Of a DNA stretch of 64,000 nucleotides, positions 22,765 through 28,922 are shown one piece after another. Every line of letters begins with the position of its first letter. The stretch's first letter is position 1. The position numbers and the translations under genes are program-made. A model generated the notes under the pieces. The model ran no database searches and was not told the origin of the DNA. It saw nothing but the letters and a program-made list of their open reading frames with translations. The stretch comes from Barrientosiimonas humi (GTDB lineage: Bacteria > Actinomycetota > Actinomycetes > Actinomycetales > Dermatophilaceae), in the NCBI RefSeq assembly GCF_006716095.1, contig NZ_VFOK01000001.1:62001-126000 (forward strand). The letters run 5' to 3'.

Positions 22765-22833
22765 GGGTCGATATCGACCCGATGTGGCACGGATCCGGGG
22801 GTCGGGCGTGCACTTTCGGGTCGATATCGACCC
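22765..22833. promoter_or_regulatory. Pair of identical 16-bp palindromes
   Basis: GGGTCGATATCGACCC occurs at 22765-22780 and again at 22818-22833, 53 bases apart, each preceded by GTGCA(T/C)TTT. The region lies between the glycerate kinase stop and the DesK-like operon (start 22982). Two identical full palindromes about five helical turns apart suggest cooperative binding of a dimeric regulator, but they could also be genome-wide repeats. Further on, GTACGCCCGGGCCGGCC is repeated at 22835 and 22871; nothing else is seen in this 240-base gap. Confidence 0.5.
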
Positions 22834-22981: not shown

Positions 22982-24106
22982 ATGCGCACAGTCCTGCGAG
23001 CACAGGCGGCCGAGGCCCGTCTGGTGCTCGGCCTGTGCTGGGCGCTGCTGCTGCTCGGCGTCGGCAGCGCGTGGTCGCAGCTGGGCTCGGCCGAGGGCGA
23101 GCCGTTCGCGGGCCGGCTCGCGACCGCCCTGCTCGCGAGCGCCGGTGCGGTGCTGTTCGCCCGGCTGCAGCTGTCGGTCAGTCGCGGCGGAGCGGCGCTC
23201 GGGCGCCGGTGGCTGGCCCCGCTTGTCATGGCCACGAGCCTCGCGCCGCTGCTGTGGGACTCGGTCAACCCGATGCTGGTGGTCGCGTGGGCCGCTGCCC
23301 TGCTGCAGCGCGACCTGCGGCGATCGCTCGTGGCCTCGGGCCTGCTGCTGGCCGTCCTCGTCTGGGTGTTCCCGCGCTCGCGGCTGGCGGCGATGGGCAC
23401 CTTCGCCGACCTGTTCTTCGAGCTGCTGCTCTACACCGTCGTCCTGGTGACCGCGACCCGGCTGGCCGTGCTGCTCGACGAGCTGCGGCTGACCCGCGAG
23501 GTGCTCGCTCGCCGTCGGGTCGATGCCGAGCGCGAGCGGGTCGGGCGCGACCTGCACGACATCATGGGCCGCACGCTCGTCGCGGCTTCGCTGCGCAACC
23601 AGGCCGCGCTGCGCGCGCTCGGCGACCGCGACCCGGCCGGTTCCCGGGAGCTGGAGCGGCTGCACGACACCATCGGCCGCGGCCAGGCGCAGCTGCGCGA
23701 GCTCACCTCCGGGCCGGTCGTCACCCGGCTGGACGAGGAGCTGGAGACCTGCCGGATGCTGTGCGAGCGGGTCCAGATCGAGCTGGCCGTGGACGTACGT
23801 CGGGAGCCGCCGGGCGAGCAGGCCGCCCTGGTCGCGCAGGTCGTGCGCCAGAGCGTCACCGACCTGCTCGGGCACAGCCGGGCCACCAGGTGCCGCATCG
23901 TGCTCGACCGCGACGACTCCGTCACGGTGGTGGCCGTGACCAACGACGGCTCGGTCCTGCGCGAGGAGCCGCCGGCTTCGCGCCCGGCCGGCCAGCTGGC
24001 CCGCGCCGTCGTCGCGGCCGGCGGCAGCATCGGCACCGAGCACGCGTCCGGAGGGCTCGCCACTCGCATCGTCCGCCTCCCGATCCGCTCCGAGGTCCCC
24101 GCGTGA
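22982..24106 (+). CDS. DesK/NarX-type sensor kinase with degenerate ATP-binding N-box
   Basis: This 374-residue membrane protein has five to six hydrophobic helices in the first ~150 residues, then a HisKA_3 domain with an intact H-box (GRDLHDIMG, phospho-acceptor His192). The ATPase part is damaged: the N-box reads RQSVTDLLGHS, with Asp294 where the Mg-binding Asn belongs and the preceding Glu replaced by Gln. The glycine-rich lid region is short. The next gene, overlapping by 4 bases, is a paralogue with the opposite defects. The pair could work as a heterodimer in which this subunit supplies the phosphorylated His. Alternatively it is a regulator of another kinase. Confidence 0.82.
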   Translation: MRTVLRAQAAEARLVLGLCWALLLLGVGSAWSQLGSAEGEPFAGRLATALLASAGAVLFARLQLSVSRGGAALGRRWLAPLVMATSLAPLLWDSVNPMLVVAWAAALLQRDLRRSLVASGLLLAVLVWVFPRSRLAAMGTFADLFFELLLYTVVLVTATRLAVLLDELRLTREVLARRRVDAERERVGRDLHDIMGRTLVAASLRNQAALRALGDRDPAGSRELERLHDTIGRGQAQLRELTSGPVVTRLDEELETCRMLCERVQIELAVDVRREPPGEQAALVAQVVRQSVTDLLGHSRATRCRIVLDRDDSVTVVAVTNDGSVLREEPPASRPAGQLARAVVAAGGSIGTEHASGGLATRIVRLPIRSEVPA

Positions 24107-25245
24107 CGCGCCTGGGTCGCGCCCGCGCCCGGCTGGCCGACGGGGAGGGCGCCCGGCTGCTCACCTGGGTCTGGGTGCTGGCGTGGGGCGAGCACGCGAT
24201 CGGCGAGGGCCGCGACGTCGTCGTGCAGCTGACGGTCGCGGCCGCGGTGCTGCTGGTCGTCGCGTGGGAGGTGACGCAGGACCGGTGGCGCAGCGGCGGT
24301 GCGTGGGCCGGGACGCTGCTGGTGGCCGGGTCCGTGGCGCTGGGCGGCGGGGAGCACCTGCGCGAGAGCAGCTATCTGCTGGGCTGGGGAGTCGCCGTGC
24401 TCGTGCTCGCCCTGCCGGGTCGCCGCGCCGCAGCGAGCGTCACGGTGGGGGTGCTCGCCGCCGCGGCGGTGTGGGCGGGGCAGGACCCGGCGCAGCTCCC
24501 CGCGCTGCTCCTCGGCGCGGTCGCGCAGCTGCTCGTGGTCTGCCTGCTGCAGCAGCTGGTCCGCACCACCCGCCGGCTCCGCCGCTCCCAGGAGGAGCTG
24601 GCGCAGACCGAGGTCGACGGCGAGCGCGGGCGACTGGCCGGAGAGCTCAACACCCTCATCGGACGTACGCTCGCGCAGACGGCGGCGCAGGCGTCGCGGG
24701 CGCGGACCCGGGTCGGTGTGGACGACCCGGAGGTGCAGGGCCACCTCGCCGAGGTCGAGAGCCTCGTCGCCCGCGGGCGGGACCAGCTGGCCCGGCTCTC
24801 GTTCGAGCCGGTGGTGGACGACCTCGCGACCGAGGTGCGCTCGACCCAGACGCTGTGCACCCGCCTGGGGGTCGCGGTCAACCTCTCGGTGGACGACGTC
24901 GACGCCGCGGTGCAGCCGGTCTTCGCGCTGCTCCTGCGCGAGGCGGTCACCAACATGCTCAAGCACGCGGCACCGACGCGGTGCACGGTCGTCACGCGGC
25001 AGCAGGACGGGGCGGCGCTGCTCAGCATCACCAACGACGGGGTCCCGGCCGGCCCGACCCCGGCCCGCGCCGGGTCGGGCAGCGGCCAGGCGCGCTGGCG
25101 CAGCCAGCTGGACCCGCTCGGCGGCACCCTCGAGGCCGGGCCGCTGCCGGGCGGGCGCTACCGCGTGCTGGCCCGGGTCCCGCTGCCCGTGTCGGTGCCC
25201 GAGGATGGCCGAGACACCCGGCTGCGAAGGAGCGCCCATGCCTGA
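24103..25245 (+). CDS. DesK/NarX-type kinase paralogue lacking the phospho-acceptor His
   Basis: This 380-residue protein has about five to six hydrophobic helices, a coiled coil and a HisKA_3-like helix. The H-box reads AGELNTLIG: Asn183 (codon AAC at 24649-24651) replaces the acceptor His, and Thr replaces the following Asp. The ATPase half is well kept, with N-box REAVTNMLKHA (Asn284), a G1-like TNDG and a glycine-rich lid before LDPLGGTLE. It can be expected to bind ATP but not to autophosphorylate. It starts at GTG inside the stop of the first kinase gene and overlaps the regulator by 8 bases, so all three are made in concert. Confidence 0.82.
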   Translation: MTRLGRARARLADGEGARLLTWVWVLAWGEHAIGEGRDVVVQLTVAAAVLLVVAWEVTQDRWRSGGAWAGTLLVAGSVALGGGEHLRESSYLLGWGVAVLVLALPGRRAAASVTVGVLAAAAVWAGQDPAQLPALLLGAVAQLLVVCLLQQLVRTTRRLRRSQEELAQTEVDGERGRLAGELNTLIGRTLAQTAAQASRARTRVGVDDPEVQGHLAEVESLVARGRDQLARLSFEPVVDDLATEVRSTQTLCTRLGVAVNLSVDDVDAAVQPVFALLLREAVTNMLKHAAPTRCTVVTRQQDGAALLSITNDGVPAGPTPARAGSGSGQARWRSQLDPLGGTLEAGPLPGGRYRVLARVPLPVSVPEDGRDTRLRRSAHA

Positions 25246-25852
25246 ACCGTTGCGGTTGCTGATCGCCGAGGACGTCGACCTCGTGGGGGAGGCGTTCGAG
25301 GCGCTGCTGGCGGCCGAGGCGGGGATCGAGGTCGTGGCTCGGGTGACGCGCGGCGACCAGGTGCTGCGCGCGGCGCAGGCGCACCGGCCCGACGTCGCCC
25401 TGCTCGACATCGACATGCCGGGCAAGACCGGGATCGAGGCGTGCGCCGAGCTGACCGCGGCCCTGCCGGAGTGCAAGGTCATGCTGCTGACCGCCCTGCC
25501 CGGCAGCGGTCACCTGCCGCGCGCGCTCGACGCCGGCGCCTCCGGCTATCTCGTGAAGTCGATGACGGCCCGGCAGCTGATCGACGGCATCCGGTCCGTG
25601 GCGGCCGGGGGCACCGTGATCGACCCTGCGCTGGCCGCCGACGCGCTGCGCGCCGGCCCCAACCCGCTCACCGACCGCGAGCGCGAGATCCTGCGCCTCG
25701 TCGACCAGGGGGTGTCGACCAGCCACATCGCCGAGGAGCTGTTCCTGTCCACCGGCACGGTGCGCAACTACCTGTCCAACGCCATGACCAAGCTCGACGC
25801 GGTGAGCCGCATCGAGGCGGTGCGCACGGCCCGGCAGCGCGGCCTGCTGTGA
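25238..25852 (+). CDS. NarL/DesR-type response regulator
   Basis: This 204-residue regulator has a receiver domain with acceptor Asp57 (LLDIDMPG) and the acidic residues Glu11/Asp12. The LuxR-type HTH has the motifs LTDREREIL, TGTVRNYLS and an end reading AVRTARQRGLL, which closely resembles DesR-type proteins. The start has GAAGGAG upstream. It is the output partner of the two preceding kinases. In Bacillus DesK/DesR control membrane lipid desaturation; no desaturase is present here, so the target is unknown. The palindromes at 22765-22833 upstream of the operon are candidate sites. Confidence 0.92.
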   Translation: MPEPLRLLIAEDVDLVGEAFEALLAAEAGIEVVARVTRGDQVLRAAQAHRPDVALLDIDMPGKTGIEACAELTAALPECKVMLLTALPGSGHLPRALDAGASGYLVKSMTARQLIDGIRSVAAGGTVIDPALAADALRAGPNPLTDREREILRLVDQGVSTSHIAEELFLSTGTVRNYLSNAMTKLDAVSRIEAVRTARQRGLL

Positions 25853-26165: not shown

Positions 26166-26177
26166 TGACACGTGTCA
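26166..26177. promoter_or_regulatory. 12-bp palindrome TGACACGTGTCA
   Basis: A perfect palindrome touches the stop codon of the ABC ATPase gene and lies 100 bases upstream of the small membrane protein. It may be an operator for the latter. No regulator can be named. Confidence 0.3.
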
Positions 26178-27287
26178 CCCAGCCGAACCCCCGGTGTCTG
26201 TCGCCCGTCCGCGCCAGGGTGATCCGGAGTAGAGCCGGCGCACGACGTCCTCGATGTCGGGCTCCTCGATCGACAGGTCGCGCACGTCGGCGCGCGCCGA
26301 CACCGCGGCGAGCACCCGGGCGGCGGTCGTTTGCTCGGCGTCGAAGGCGAGGCGCTGCTGCAGCCCCTGCGCCTCGCTGGCCAGGTGCTGCGTGCCGGGG
26401 ATGCCGGTGAGGTCCTCGCCTGGCTCGGCGAGGTCGACCACCAGCACGCGCTGCGCACCCACCTTCGCCGACAGGCCGGGGAGCGTCCCGTCGTACGCCA
26501 GTCGCCCGTGGTCGACGACCAGCACCCGGTCGCAGAGCCGCTCGATGTCGCCCATGTCGTGGGTCGTGAGCAGCAGCGTGGTGCCGTGCTCGCGCCGCTC
26601 CTCGACGAGGAACTCGCGCAGTCGCTGCTTGCTGAGCACGTCCAGCCCGATGGTCGGCTCGTCGAGGATCACCAGGCGGGGCGAGTGCAGCAGCGCGGCG
26701 GCCACCTCGGCGCGCATGCGCTGCCCGAGCGACAGCTGGCGCACCGGGGTCGCGAGGAACTCGCCCATCTCGAGCCGGTCGACGAGCTCGTCGGTGCGGG
26801 CGCGCTCGCGCGCGGCGTCGAGGCCGTGGATGGCGGCGAGGATCCCGAACGACTCGCGCACCGGCAGGTCCCACCACAGCTGGGAGCGCTGCCCGAACAC
26901 CACGCCCACCTCGCGCGCGAGCCGGCGGCGGTCCTCGACCGGGCGCAGGCCGCAGGTGCGCACCTCGCCCGACGTCGGCACGAGGATGCCGGTGAGCATC
27001 TTGATCGTCGTGGACTTGCCTGCCCCGTTCGCGCCGATGTAGCCCACCGCCGACCCCGCCCCGACCGTGAAGGTCATCGCGTCGACCGCGCGAATCTGCT
27101 TGCGGCGCAAGCCGTCCCGCACGCGGAAGTCGCGGGTGAGGTCGCGCGTCTCGATGATGGGGTCTCGGTCTCGGTCTCGATACGCGGCTCGTTCCTCGCC
27201 GCCACCCTTCGATACGCGCTCGTCCCTCGCGCTACTCAGGGCATCGCTCGACCGGCTTGGTCCGCTCGACCGGCTTGGTCCGCTCAT
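26175..27287 (-). CDS. ABC-2 type exporter ATP-binding protein
   Basis: This 370-residue ATPase has Walker A GANGAGKST, a Q-loop, the signature LSLGQRMR, Walker B RLVILDEP and the switch His in TTHDMGD. A ~75-residue C-terminal extension follows, as in multidrug/daunorubicin-type ABC-2 exporters. The first ~43 residues (repeated SGPSRSS, then charged residues) are unlike the family and are encoded by copies of the intergenic GGTCGAG/GTATCGAGACC repeat. ATG 27287 overlaps the stop of the upstream permease (ATGA), which supports this start. It is the last of three genes that together make one exporter of unknown substrate. Confidence 0.9.
   Translation of the reverse strand: MSGPSRSSGPSRSSDALSSARDERVSKGGGEERAAYRDRDRDPIIETRDLTRDFRVRDGLRRKQIRAVDAMTFTVGAGSAVGYIGANGAGKSTTIKMLTGILVPTSGEVRTCGLRPVEDRRRLAREVGVVFGQRSQLWWDLPVRESFGILAAIHGLDAARERARTDELVDRLEMGEFLATPVRQLSLGQRMRAEVAAALLHSPRLVILDEPTIGLDVLSKQRLREFLVEERREHGTTLLLTTHDMGDIERLCDRVLVVDHGRLAYDGTLPGLSAKVGAQRVLVVDLAEPGEDLTGIPGTQHLASEAQGLQQRLAFDAEQTTAARVLAAVSARADVRDLSIEEPDIEDVVRRLYSGSPWRGRATDTGGSAG
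27173..27283. repeat. Intergenic-type repeat inside the 5' end of an ABC ATPase gene
   Basis: The segment holds GGTCTCGATAC at 27173, GGCTCGTTCCTCGCCGCC near 27187 (complement of a unit found at 50078 and 50165), CTTCGATACGCGCTCG near 27208, and two copies of an 18-base CTCGACCGGCTTGGTCCG unit at about 27249-27284. The same motifs make up the gene-free block at 7756-8396. Here they are translated as the N-terminal extension of the ATPase. Confidence 0.75.
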
Positions 27288-28123
27288 CCGCCGCCTCCTT
27301 GGTAGTGCCGGACCCCCACGCGCCAGAAGAGCAGCGCCATCGCCCAGGCCCACAGTGCCGCGACCGGGGTGAACCAGGCGAGCCAGGTCGGCAGCAGGCC
27401 CGGGCCGGGGAGGCCCAGCAGGCGCAGCGCCGGGAGGTAGGCCGTGAAGGCCATGGGGAAGAAGAAGCCGAACAGCACGGTGAGCGGCCGGCCCCAGACC
27501 GAGGCGGGCTGCGTCGCGGCGTAGCGACCGCCGTACACGAACGCGTTGGTCATCTCCGCGCCGTTGATCAGGAAGAACTGCGCCCCCGCCGCCCAGACGA
27601 ACATCGCGGCGAAGATCGCGATGCCCGACACCAGCGAGATCCCGAGCAGCGCGACGGCCGACACCGACCAGGCGATGTCGTTGACGGCGAGGCCGATGAC
27701 CAGGCAGACGAGACCGACGGCGGCGCGGGTGAGCCGGCGCAGGCTGATGTCGCTCGTGATCAGCTGCAGCAGCAGCGGTTGCGGCCGCAGGTAGAACACG
27801 TCGAGCGTGCCGGCACGGACGTACGTCGGCAGGTTGTCGCAGTGGCCCACGACCATGTCGGCGAGCGAGAAGCACAGGTCGGCCAGCCCGAAGACCAGCA
27901 GGATCTGGGTGAAGCTGACGCCGCCGAGCGTCCCGACGCTGTGGAACAGCACCCACACCTCGGCCAGCTCGATGAGCCCCACGAGCAACGAGCTCAGCAG
28001 GTCGATGCGGAAGTTCAGCCGGTATGCCCGCTGCGACCTCATCCGCGACGCCAGCACCGCGCGGTAGGCCCGCAGGTCGACCTTGCGCGCCGAACCCGTT
28101 GCGAGAGAGGAAGATTCAGCCAC
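27284..28123 (-). CDS. ABC-2 family permease (second subunit)
   Basis: This 279-residue membrane protein with about six helices belongs to the ABC2_membrane_6/DUF990-type permeases that come as pairs with one ATPase. Visible traits are an N-terminal cytoplasmic segment (RMRSQRAYRLNF) before the first helix and the loop DVFYLRPQPL, which is typical of this family. The GTG start overlaps the stop of the first permease by 8 bases, and its stop overlaps the ATPase start by 4 bases. The substrate is unknown; relatives are annotated as lipid, antibiotic or multidrug exporters. Confidence 0.85.
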   Translation of the reverse strand: MAESSSLATGSARKVDLRAYRAVLASRMRSQRAYRLNFRIDLLSSLLVGLIELAEVWVLFHSVGTLGGVSFTQILLVFGLADLCFSLADMVVGHCDNLPTYVRAGTLDVFYLRPQPLLLQLITSDISLRRLTRAAVGLVCLVIGLAVNDIAWSVSAVALLGISLVSGIAIFAAMFVWAAGAQFFLINGAEMTNAFVYGGRYAATQPASVWGRPLTVLFGFFFPMAFTAYLPALRLLGLPGPGLLPTWLAWFTPVAALWAWAMALLFWRVGVRHYQGGGG

Positions 28124-28922
28124 CCTGCACCTCCAGCTTGCGGCGCCCGGCGCGGGTGGTGAGGTGCCCGGCGGCCCAGGCGGCGGCGAGCCAGGCCAGC
28201 TGCGCGGCGAACAGCCCGAGCGACGCGAGGCCGGTCACGCGCCCGGAGAGGATGTCGATCGGATACATCATCATCGACGGGAACGGGGTGGCCTGGGCGA
28301 CCACCTGCAGCCACGTCGGGAAGATCGCGATCGGCACGAACAGCCCGGCGAGGAAGCCCGAGACGACCATGTAGAGCACCTGGATGCCCCGTGTCTCGAC
28401 GAGCCAGAAGCCGGTCGTCGCCACGAGGTAGACCACGGTCGCGCCGAGGGTGATGCCGACGAGCAGGCTGGCGGCGCCGAGGACGTACGCCCCCGGCGAG
28501 TCGGGCATGGCCATCCCGACCACGAGCGCCCCGATCAGCACGCTCGGGATCCCGCGCGGCACGAGCGACCAGAGCGAGCGGCCGACCTCCTGCACGATCG
28601 CGGCGGCCTGCACGTCGAGCGGGCGGATGAAGTCGATGGCGACGCTGCCGTCCTTGATGCGGGTCGCGAGGTCGCTGCGGCCGTGCAGGTTGATCGCACC
28701 GAGCAGCCCCTGCGACAGCCAGATATAGGTGCTCATCGTGGCGAGGTCGTAGCCGTTCAGCTCGCCGCCGGCCGCGCGCACGGTCGCGAACAGCATGGCG
28801 ACCTTGAGGAACCCGAAGGTGACGTTGGCGACCAGCCCGCCGAGCGCGGCGAGGCGATAGGTGGCGCCCTCCCGGACGCCCGCGACGAGCAGCCGGAGGT
28901 AGGGGCGCGGTCGCGGGGGCAC
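28116..28922 (-). CDS. ABC-2 family permease (first subunit)
   Basis: This 268-residue, six-helix permease is related to the next one; SVAIDFIRPLDVQ occupies the place of the LRPQ loop. GTG 28922 begins VPPRPRPYLRLL, just before the first helix. It heads the three-gene minus-strand exporter operon and is divergent from gluconokinase across a 57-base gap, which must hold both promoters. Confidence 0.85.
   Translation of the reverse strand: MPPRPRPYLRLLVAGVREGATYRLAALGGLVANVTFGFLKVAMLFATVRAAGGELNGYDLATMSTYIWLSQGLLGAINLHGRSDLATRIKDGSVAIDFIRPLDVQAAAIVQEVGRSLWSLVPRGIPSVLIGALVVGMAMPDSPGAYVLGAASLLVGITLGATVVYLVATTGFWLVETRGIQVLYMVVSGFLAGLFVPIAIFPTWLQVVAQATPFPSMMMYPIDILSGRVTGLASLGLFAAQLAWLAAAWAAGHLTTRAGRRKLEVQGG

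Follow-up and report, generated by a model that had tools for sequence, protein, structure and literature searches.

Two overlapping DesK-type histidine kinase paralogues of Barrientosiimonas humi with reciprocal catalytic losses: a probable split kinase

Histidine kinases are commonly treated as homodimers. How could a two-component system signal if each of its two kinases has lost a different part of the catalytic machinery? The question is raised by two adjacent genes in a 64,000-nucleotide stretch of the Barrientosiimonas humi genome (contig NZ_VFOK01000001.1, positions 62,001 to 126,000; hereafter the window). The genome comprises two contigs and 3.65 Mb and is the sole representative of its genus in the survey described below. 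An earlier note, made from the sequence alone, had described the two products as paralogues. The first (P1, subunit A) was said to keep the phosphoacceptor His192 and to have Asp294 where the N-box Asn is expected, the second (P2, subunit B) to carry Asn183 in place of the His and to keep the N-box residue Asn284. All four residue numbers are exact, and the overlap of the two genes and the single regulator gene that follows were likewise placed correctly (see table). Paralogy is borne out by 31% identity between P1 and P2 (E = 5e-20) and by their position within one subclade of the tree. The regulator gene overlaps the end of the P2 gene by 8 bases. Its product has an intact acidic pocket, Asp57, Thr and Lys, together with a GerE DNA-binding domain; domain matches and residues thus identify a NarL-type two-component regulator with a phosphorylatable receiver.

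Features of the kinase pair locus, in window coordinates
Feature	Position	Strand	Observations
Subunit A (P1), membrane DesK-type kinase paralogue, putative phosphoacceptor subunit (374 aa)	22982..24106	+	HisKA_3 39 bits, no HATPase_c; A clade 100/99
His192 codon of P1, predicted phosphoacceptor, followed by Asp193	23555..23557	+	His and Asp kept in 6/6 A subunits; motif RDLHDIMG
Asp294 codon of P1 at the N-box Asn position (RQSVTDLLGHS)	23861..23863	+	N in three of the other A subunits, F and H in one each
ATP-lid/G2 region of A without GxG motif (SVLREEPPASRPAGQLAR)	23951..24004	+	Motif lost in 6/6 A, present in 50/53 unpaired kinases
Subunit B (P2), membrane DesK-type kinase paralogue, putative ATP-binding subunit (380 aa, GTG start)	24103..25245	+	DesK-like by sequence and fold search; B clade 100/99
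Stop codon of A overlapping the start codon of B, 4 bases GTGA (predicted translational coupling)	24103..24106	+	Overlap of 4 bases in all six pairs
Asn183 codon at the phosphoacceptor site of B (GELNTLIG)	24649..24651	+	N in five and R in one of six B subunits
Asn284 codon, intact N-box of B (REAVTNMLKHA)	24952..24954	+	Asn in 6/6 B subunits
G2 motif of B, GSGQARWR	25078..25101	+	GxG kept in 5/6 B; SSG in G187
NarL/DesR-type response regulator, predicted phosphoacceptor Asp57 (204 aa)	25238..25852	+	Response_reg 76 bits, GerE 64 bits

Among solved structures, the DesK kinase of Bacillus subtilis is the best sequence match of both P1 and P2. It also ranks first in a fold search (Foldseek) with AlphaFold monomer models of the two proteins (moderate confidence, pLDDT 65); these models, built on three-sequence alignments, confirm the fold and resolve the pockets too weakly for comparison. 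The alignment to HisKA_3 and HATPase_c proposed in the earlier note gave a clear answer for P1, which matches the first profile and has no match to the second, and a weaker one for P2, which stays below both Pfam cut-offs (HATPase_c, 17.9 bits against 26.4; HisKA_3, 15.7 bits against 24). Hence the HisKA_3 DHp domain with its phosphoacceptor His is found in A and not in B, and A by itself, with Asp294 and no GxG motif, is not recognisable as a HATPase_c protein. B has both the N-box Asn and the GxG lid motif at its sub-threshold score; a near single-gene relative also scores low, at 27.0 bits. In the wider set, HisKA_3 exceeds its cut-off in all five A subunits tested and in none of the six B. 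DHp profile scores run from 55 to 69 bits in A and from 12 to 39 in B, the minimum for unpaired kinases being 45; CA profile scores are 54-97 bits in A and 83-117 in B. Since no B of the set passes either cut-off, annotation that relies on HisKA_3 or HATPase_c thresholds will miss such subunits.

A survey of homologous operons had been set beforehand as the test by which the proposal of a split kinase might be refuted. The initial scan scored only the top candidates per genome, and coverage of the order and of the class was by sampling. The A-B-regulator triplet was found in five genomes besides that of the window, one of them in another family, giving six in total. Among 188 genomes of the family, clear orthologues of P2 occur in four (G018, G187, G122 and G186), and a P1-like profile passes 490 bits in these same four and in the window's genome only, the next best score being 262 bits; A never occurred alone, lacking B, in these 188 genomes. 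Searching 396 genomes of the order with a B profile yielded the sixth triplet, in a different family (G197), and no additional B subunit appeared among 395 sampled genomes of the class, where scores fall from 535 to 142 bits after the known B; its hits led instead to the fused double kinases described below, which are of a different kind. A search of the genome contigs with P2 returned distant single kinases only. At each paired locus the genes stand in the order A, B, regulator, and the overlap at the A-B junction is exactly 4 bases in all six pairs. Such overlaps are common in operons, and this one gives modest support to coupled synthesis. Thus, A and B are encoded side by side and stay linked, with exact co-occurrence in the family and a sixth pair outside it.

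The substitutions recur as regularly as the genes do. Every B has lost the phosphoacceptor His and retained the N-box Asn; every A has retained the His and lost the glycine motif of the lid. By comparison, the 53 unpaired DesK-like kinases gathered by the same searches all have both the His and the N-box Asn, so that the pattern in P1 and P2 is more than chance. Complementary loss, as claimed earlier, therefore holds as a division of His and ATP site in six of six pairs, and not as an N-box change in the first subunit, which is limited to three of them. Asp294 was ruled out as the defining lesion of A, given that Asn occupies this position in three A subunits (the others having D, F and H); the lesion common to all is in the G2/lid motif, and the N-box losses look like later, repeated additions to it. 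Similarly, the "shortened lid" that had been noted in P1 is real to the extent of a few residues, the actual loss being that of the GxG motif (PASRPAGQLAR). The G2 motif of B is itself atypical, reading GSGQ and once SSGQ, and this counts against the split-kinase reading. Residues that would face the regulator follow the same division. In DesK, Ser196 and Leu200 contact DesR (PMC5231405); the Asp after the His and the equivalents of these two positions are D, V and L in all six A subunits and varied in B. To judge from these alignments, A alone preserves the acceptor, the acid next to it and the face that docks the regulator, and the motifs for ATP binding have stayed with B.

Sequence conservation gave a second view of this division. 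Mean pairwise identity is 0.62 for the DHp and 0.35 for the CA domain in A, and 0.36 and 0.46, respectively, in B; the values for eleven near unpaired relatives are 0.57 and 0.41. The DHp domain is better conserved in A than in B in 15 of 15 genome pairs, and the CA domain better in B than in A in 14 of 15. H-box identity reaches 0.83 in A (0.69 in the complete near relatives), and N-box identity 0.79 in B (0.65 in the near unpaired kinases). Constraint is thus partitioned, the His domain being conserved in A and the ATP domain in B. Residues and constraint together place the phosphoacceptor and ATP functions on separate proteins in the six pairs.

In a maximum-likelihood tree, all A subunits group together, and so do all B subunits (100/99 for each group); both groups lie within a clade of 23 members (100/99) that includes complete single kinases. 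This topology points to one duplication and shared descent, so the six pairs do not represent independent gains or losses; the stronger evidence comes from the way in which constraint has been divided after the duplication. The reading frames have stayed open in all six pairs despite long divergence, with branches near one change per site. Presumably a complete DesK-like kinase, of a kind often found beside class III lanthipeptide synthetase genes in relatives, was duplicated once and its copies then decayed reciprocally. The two paralogues appear to have been locked by these losses into a heterodimer, and complete single-gene relatives persist in neighbouring genera; with such relatives extant, the evolution of an obligate hetero-oligomer can be tested stepwise. 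Complementary loss does not follow automatically from duplication, since DesK-like duplications in the class have had other outcomes. Both cores are intact in a fused double kinase (G757) and in a tandem pair (G849), and in seven fused double DesK-like kinases of another actinobacterial family an N-terminal core without His and N-box Asn precedes an intact C-terminal core. These seven (L135, L138, L139, L140, L141, L143 and L150) have N or S for the His and G, D or E for the Asn. In the fused double kinase group, a NarL-type regulator gene adjoins on the opposite strand in L155 and L157. At L153:3350-5749 a single open frame contains two intact DesK-like cores in tandem.

We propose that P1 and P2 form an obligate heterodimeric split kinase of the DesK type, in which the ATP domain of B phosphorylates A, and put the probability of this reading at about 0.75. 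Both subunits are predicted membrane proteins with DHp and CA domains and would pair through a DHp four-helix bundle. ATP held by the CA domain of B would donate its phosphoryl group across the dimer to His192 of A; the DHp face of A would then dock the neighbouring regulator and pass the group to Asp57. Homodimers of either kind should be inactive as kinases. An AA dimer would have no competent ATP site and a BB dimer no acceptor, leaving AB as the only form capable of autophosphorylation. Given the recurrence of this division in six actinobacterial genomes, the kinase very probably works solely as a mixed pair. The survey, the residues and the co-occurrence all support the requirement for both subunits put forward in the earlier note, and we infer from them the remaining elements of that proposal, namely heterodimer formation, ATP binding by B and transfer in trans. 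Phosphotransfer from B to A would demand a trans geometry, and in this class of enzymes the handedness of the DHp loop decides between cis and trans (PMC6798134). The pair poses directly the question of whether DesK-type kinases can phosphorylate in trans.

The same residues leave some room for another view. All six A subunits retain the Asp of the G1 motif and three retain the N-box Asn, so that the CA domain of A may keep weak nucleotide binding. A could then be a weakly active kinase acting as an A:A dimer, with B as a pseudokinase; B would bind ATP or signals and exert an allosteric effect on A, with no phosphorylation of A by B. Modulation of a partner by a pseudokinase has been proposed for ChrS and HrrS (PMC9491836), and the seven fused kinases do couple a pseudokinase core to an intact one. 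In those proteins, however, the partner core is fully intact, which is true of neither A nor B; the lid motif is gone from every A, whose CA domain is its least conserved part; and B conserves above the level of its near relatives precisely those ATP-binding motifs that a non-catalytic modulator would have no need to conserve. We consider this explanation unlikely. More improbable still is a scheme in which A receives its phosphate from some other cellular kinase, B works with another partner and the operon is only a remnant. At least eight further HisKA_3 kinases in the B. humi genome could supply such partners, but strict co-occurrence, gene order and overlap across six genomes that belong to different genera or families, the lack of any A without B in the family, and a reciprocal constraint measured in identical genome pairs all speak against it. 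Least credible is that the pair is decaying into pseudogenes, as lost residues that are normally invariant, and the absence from the window's genome of the synthetase gene found beside the pair in relatives, might suggest: the frames are open throughout, the regulator is intact, and H-box and N-box identities higher than in intact near relatives are the mark of purifying selection.

The split kinase favoured here has partial counterparts among known systems. DesK/DesR resembles it in combining a HisKA_3 kinase with a NarL-type regulator and in domain order. It differs in that DesK is one complete homodimeric kinase/phosphatase, whereas A and B divide the His and the ATP site between two paralogues, and in that the Gln of the HDxxxQ motif is Arg in A and its near relatives. 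In Rhodobacter sphaeroides, neither CheA3 nor CheA4 autophosphorylates alone, and the mixture does (PMC3591291). There, too, the ATP-binding domain comes from one protein and the phosphoacceptor from the other, a division that we read for A and B from their sequences; but CheA3 and CheA4 are cytoplasmic members of the CheA family in which whole domains are absent, and A and B are full-length membrane kinases with point changes in opposite domains. In Synechocystis, Hik36-Hik43 is a split kinase in which two genes make one kinase for one regulator (PMC7656254). Unlike A and B, it is a split of CheA/PilL-like HPt and CA parts encoded by distant genes, and its components are neither of the DesK type nor paralogues with reciprocal losses. 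Rv0601c and Rv0600c of Mycobacterium tuberculosis are a His-bearing and an ATP-binding protein, produced by a truncation-type split of another kinase family. Their two genes adjoin one regulator gene, as in the present locus, and the proteins are described as cooperating with TcrA (PMC9274095). The AbrC1/AbrC2/AbrC3 locus of Streptomyces coelicolor also has two kinases and a NarL-type regulator, but the kinases are not complementary halves, each being able to phosphorylate AbrC3 (PMC9739842). Native heterodimers of two-component kinases are known for ChrS and HrrS (PMC9491836). Split kinases as such are already known; what would be new is one built from two full-length membrane paralogues of the DesK type through reciprocal decay. 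In a literature search, with most subscription journals outside its scope, no DesK-type pair turned up in which one partner had lost the His and the other the ATP site. For synthetic circuits, the pair also offers a naturally split kinase.

The Gln of HDxxxQ has a role in phosphatase activity (PMC5231405, PMC6798134). Its position is occupied by Arg in all six A subunits and in 11 of 11 near single kinases, and B has no HD at all. With the motif absent from A and the whole subfamily, strong phosphatase activity is not expected. Bistability has been predicted for bifunctional split kinases (PMC3591291); as it needs phosphatase activity, it should not be assumed for A and B. In most other DesK-like kinases of actinobacteria sampled, the Gln position is occupied by His.

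The surroundings of the pair in other genomes hint at its role. A class III synthetase gene, LanKC, immediately precedes A in G018, G187 and G186, and LanKC also stands beside single kinases in six genomes (G180, G162, G158, G154, G392 and G375); the link of the kinase subfamily to LanKC can be seen at loci L045, L046, L048, L049, L116 and L118. LanKC was found neither in the window's genome nor in G122. A lanthipeptide synthetase was sought in the former with PF05147 and NF038151 and rejected, the best NF038151 score (84 bits) being at the level of ordinary Ser/Thr kinases. Given this association with lanthipeptide clusters, the regulator may be one that controls the production of peptide antibiotics or immunity. 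One could tentatively imagine, at somewhat less than even odds, that heterodimeric kinases derived from such clusters act as AND gates, each membrane sensor half reading its own signal and the regulator firing only with both subunits present and engaged.

Two features close to the genes were considered as parts of the system and set aside. The palindrome GGGTCGATATCGACCC occurs upstream of P1 at 22765-22780 and 22818-22833, 53 bases apart. It was rejected as the regulator's operator on account of 32 genomic sites, many of them tandem pairs with the same 53-base spacing, which mark a dispersed repeat. These sites (counted with up to two mismatches) are intergenic, and the palindrome is rarer in relatives. 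The ABC exporter downstream (26175-28922) was discarded as a conserved partner, its permease and that of the exporter next to the G122 pair showing no similarity. Further genes of lanthipeptide type accompany the pair elsewhere. In G187 these are the class V subunit LxmK and an M16-like peptidase, the latter named by eye. In G186, a LanM-like synthetase lies a few kb from the kinase pair, as does a peptidase-containing ABC transporter (L117:1510-6640; both named by eye), and several lanthipeptide systems may share this region.
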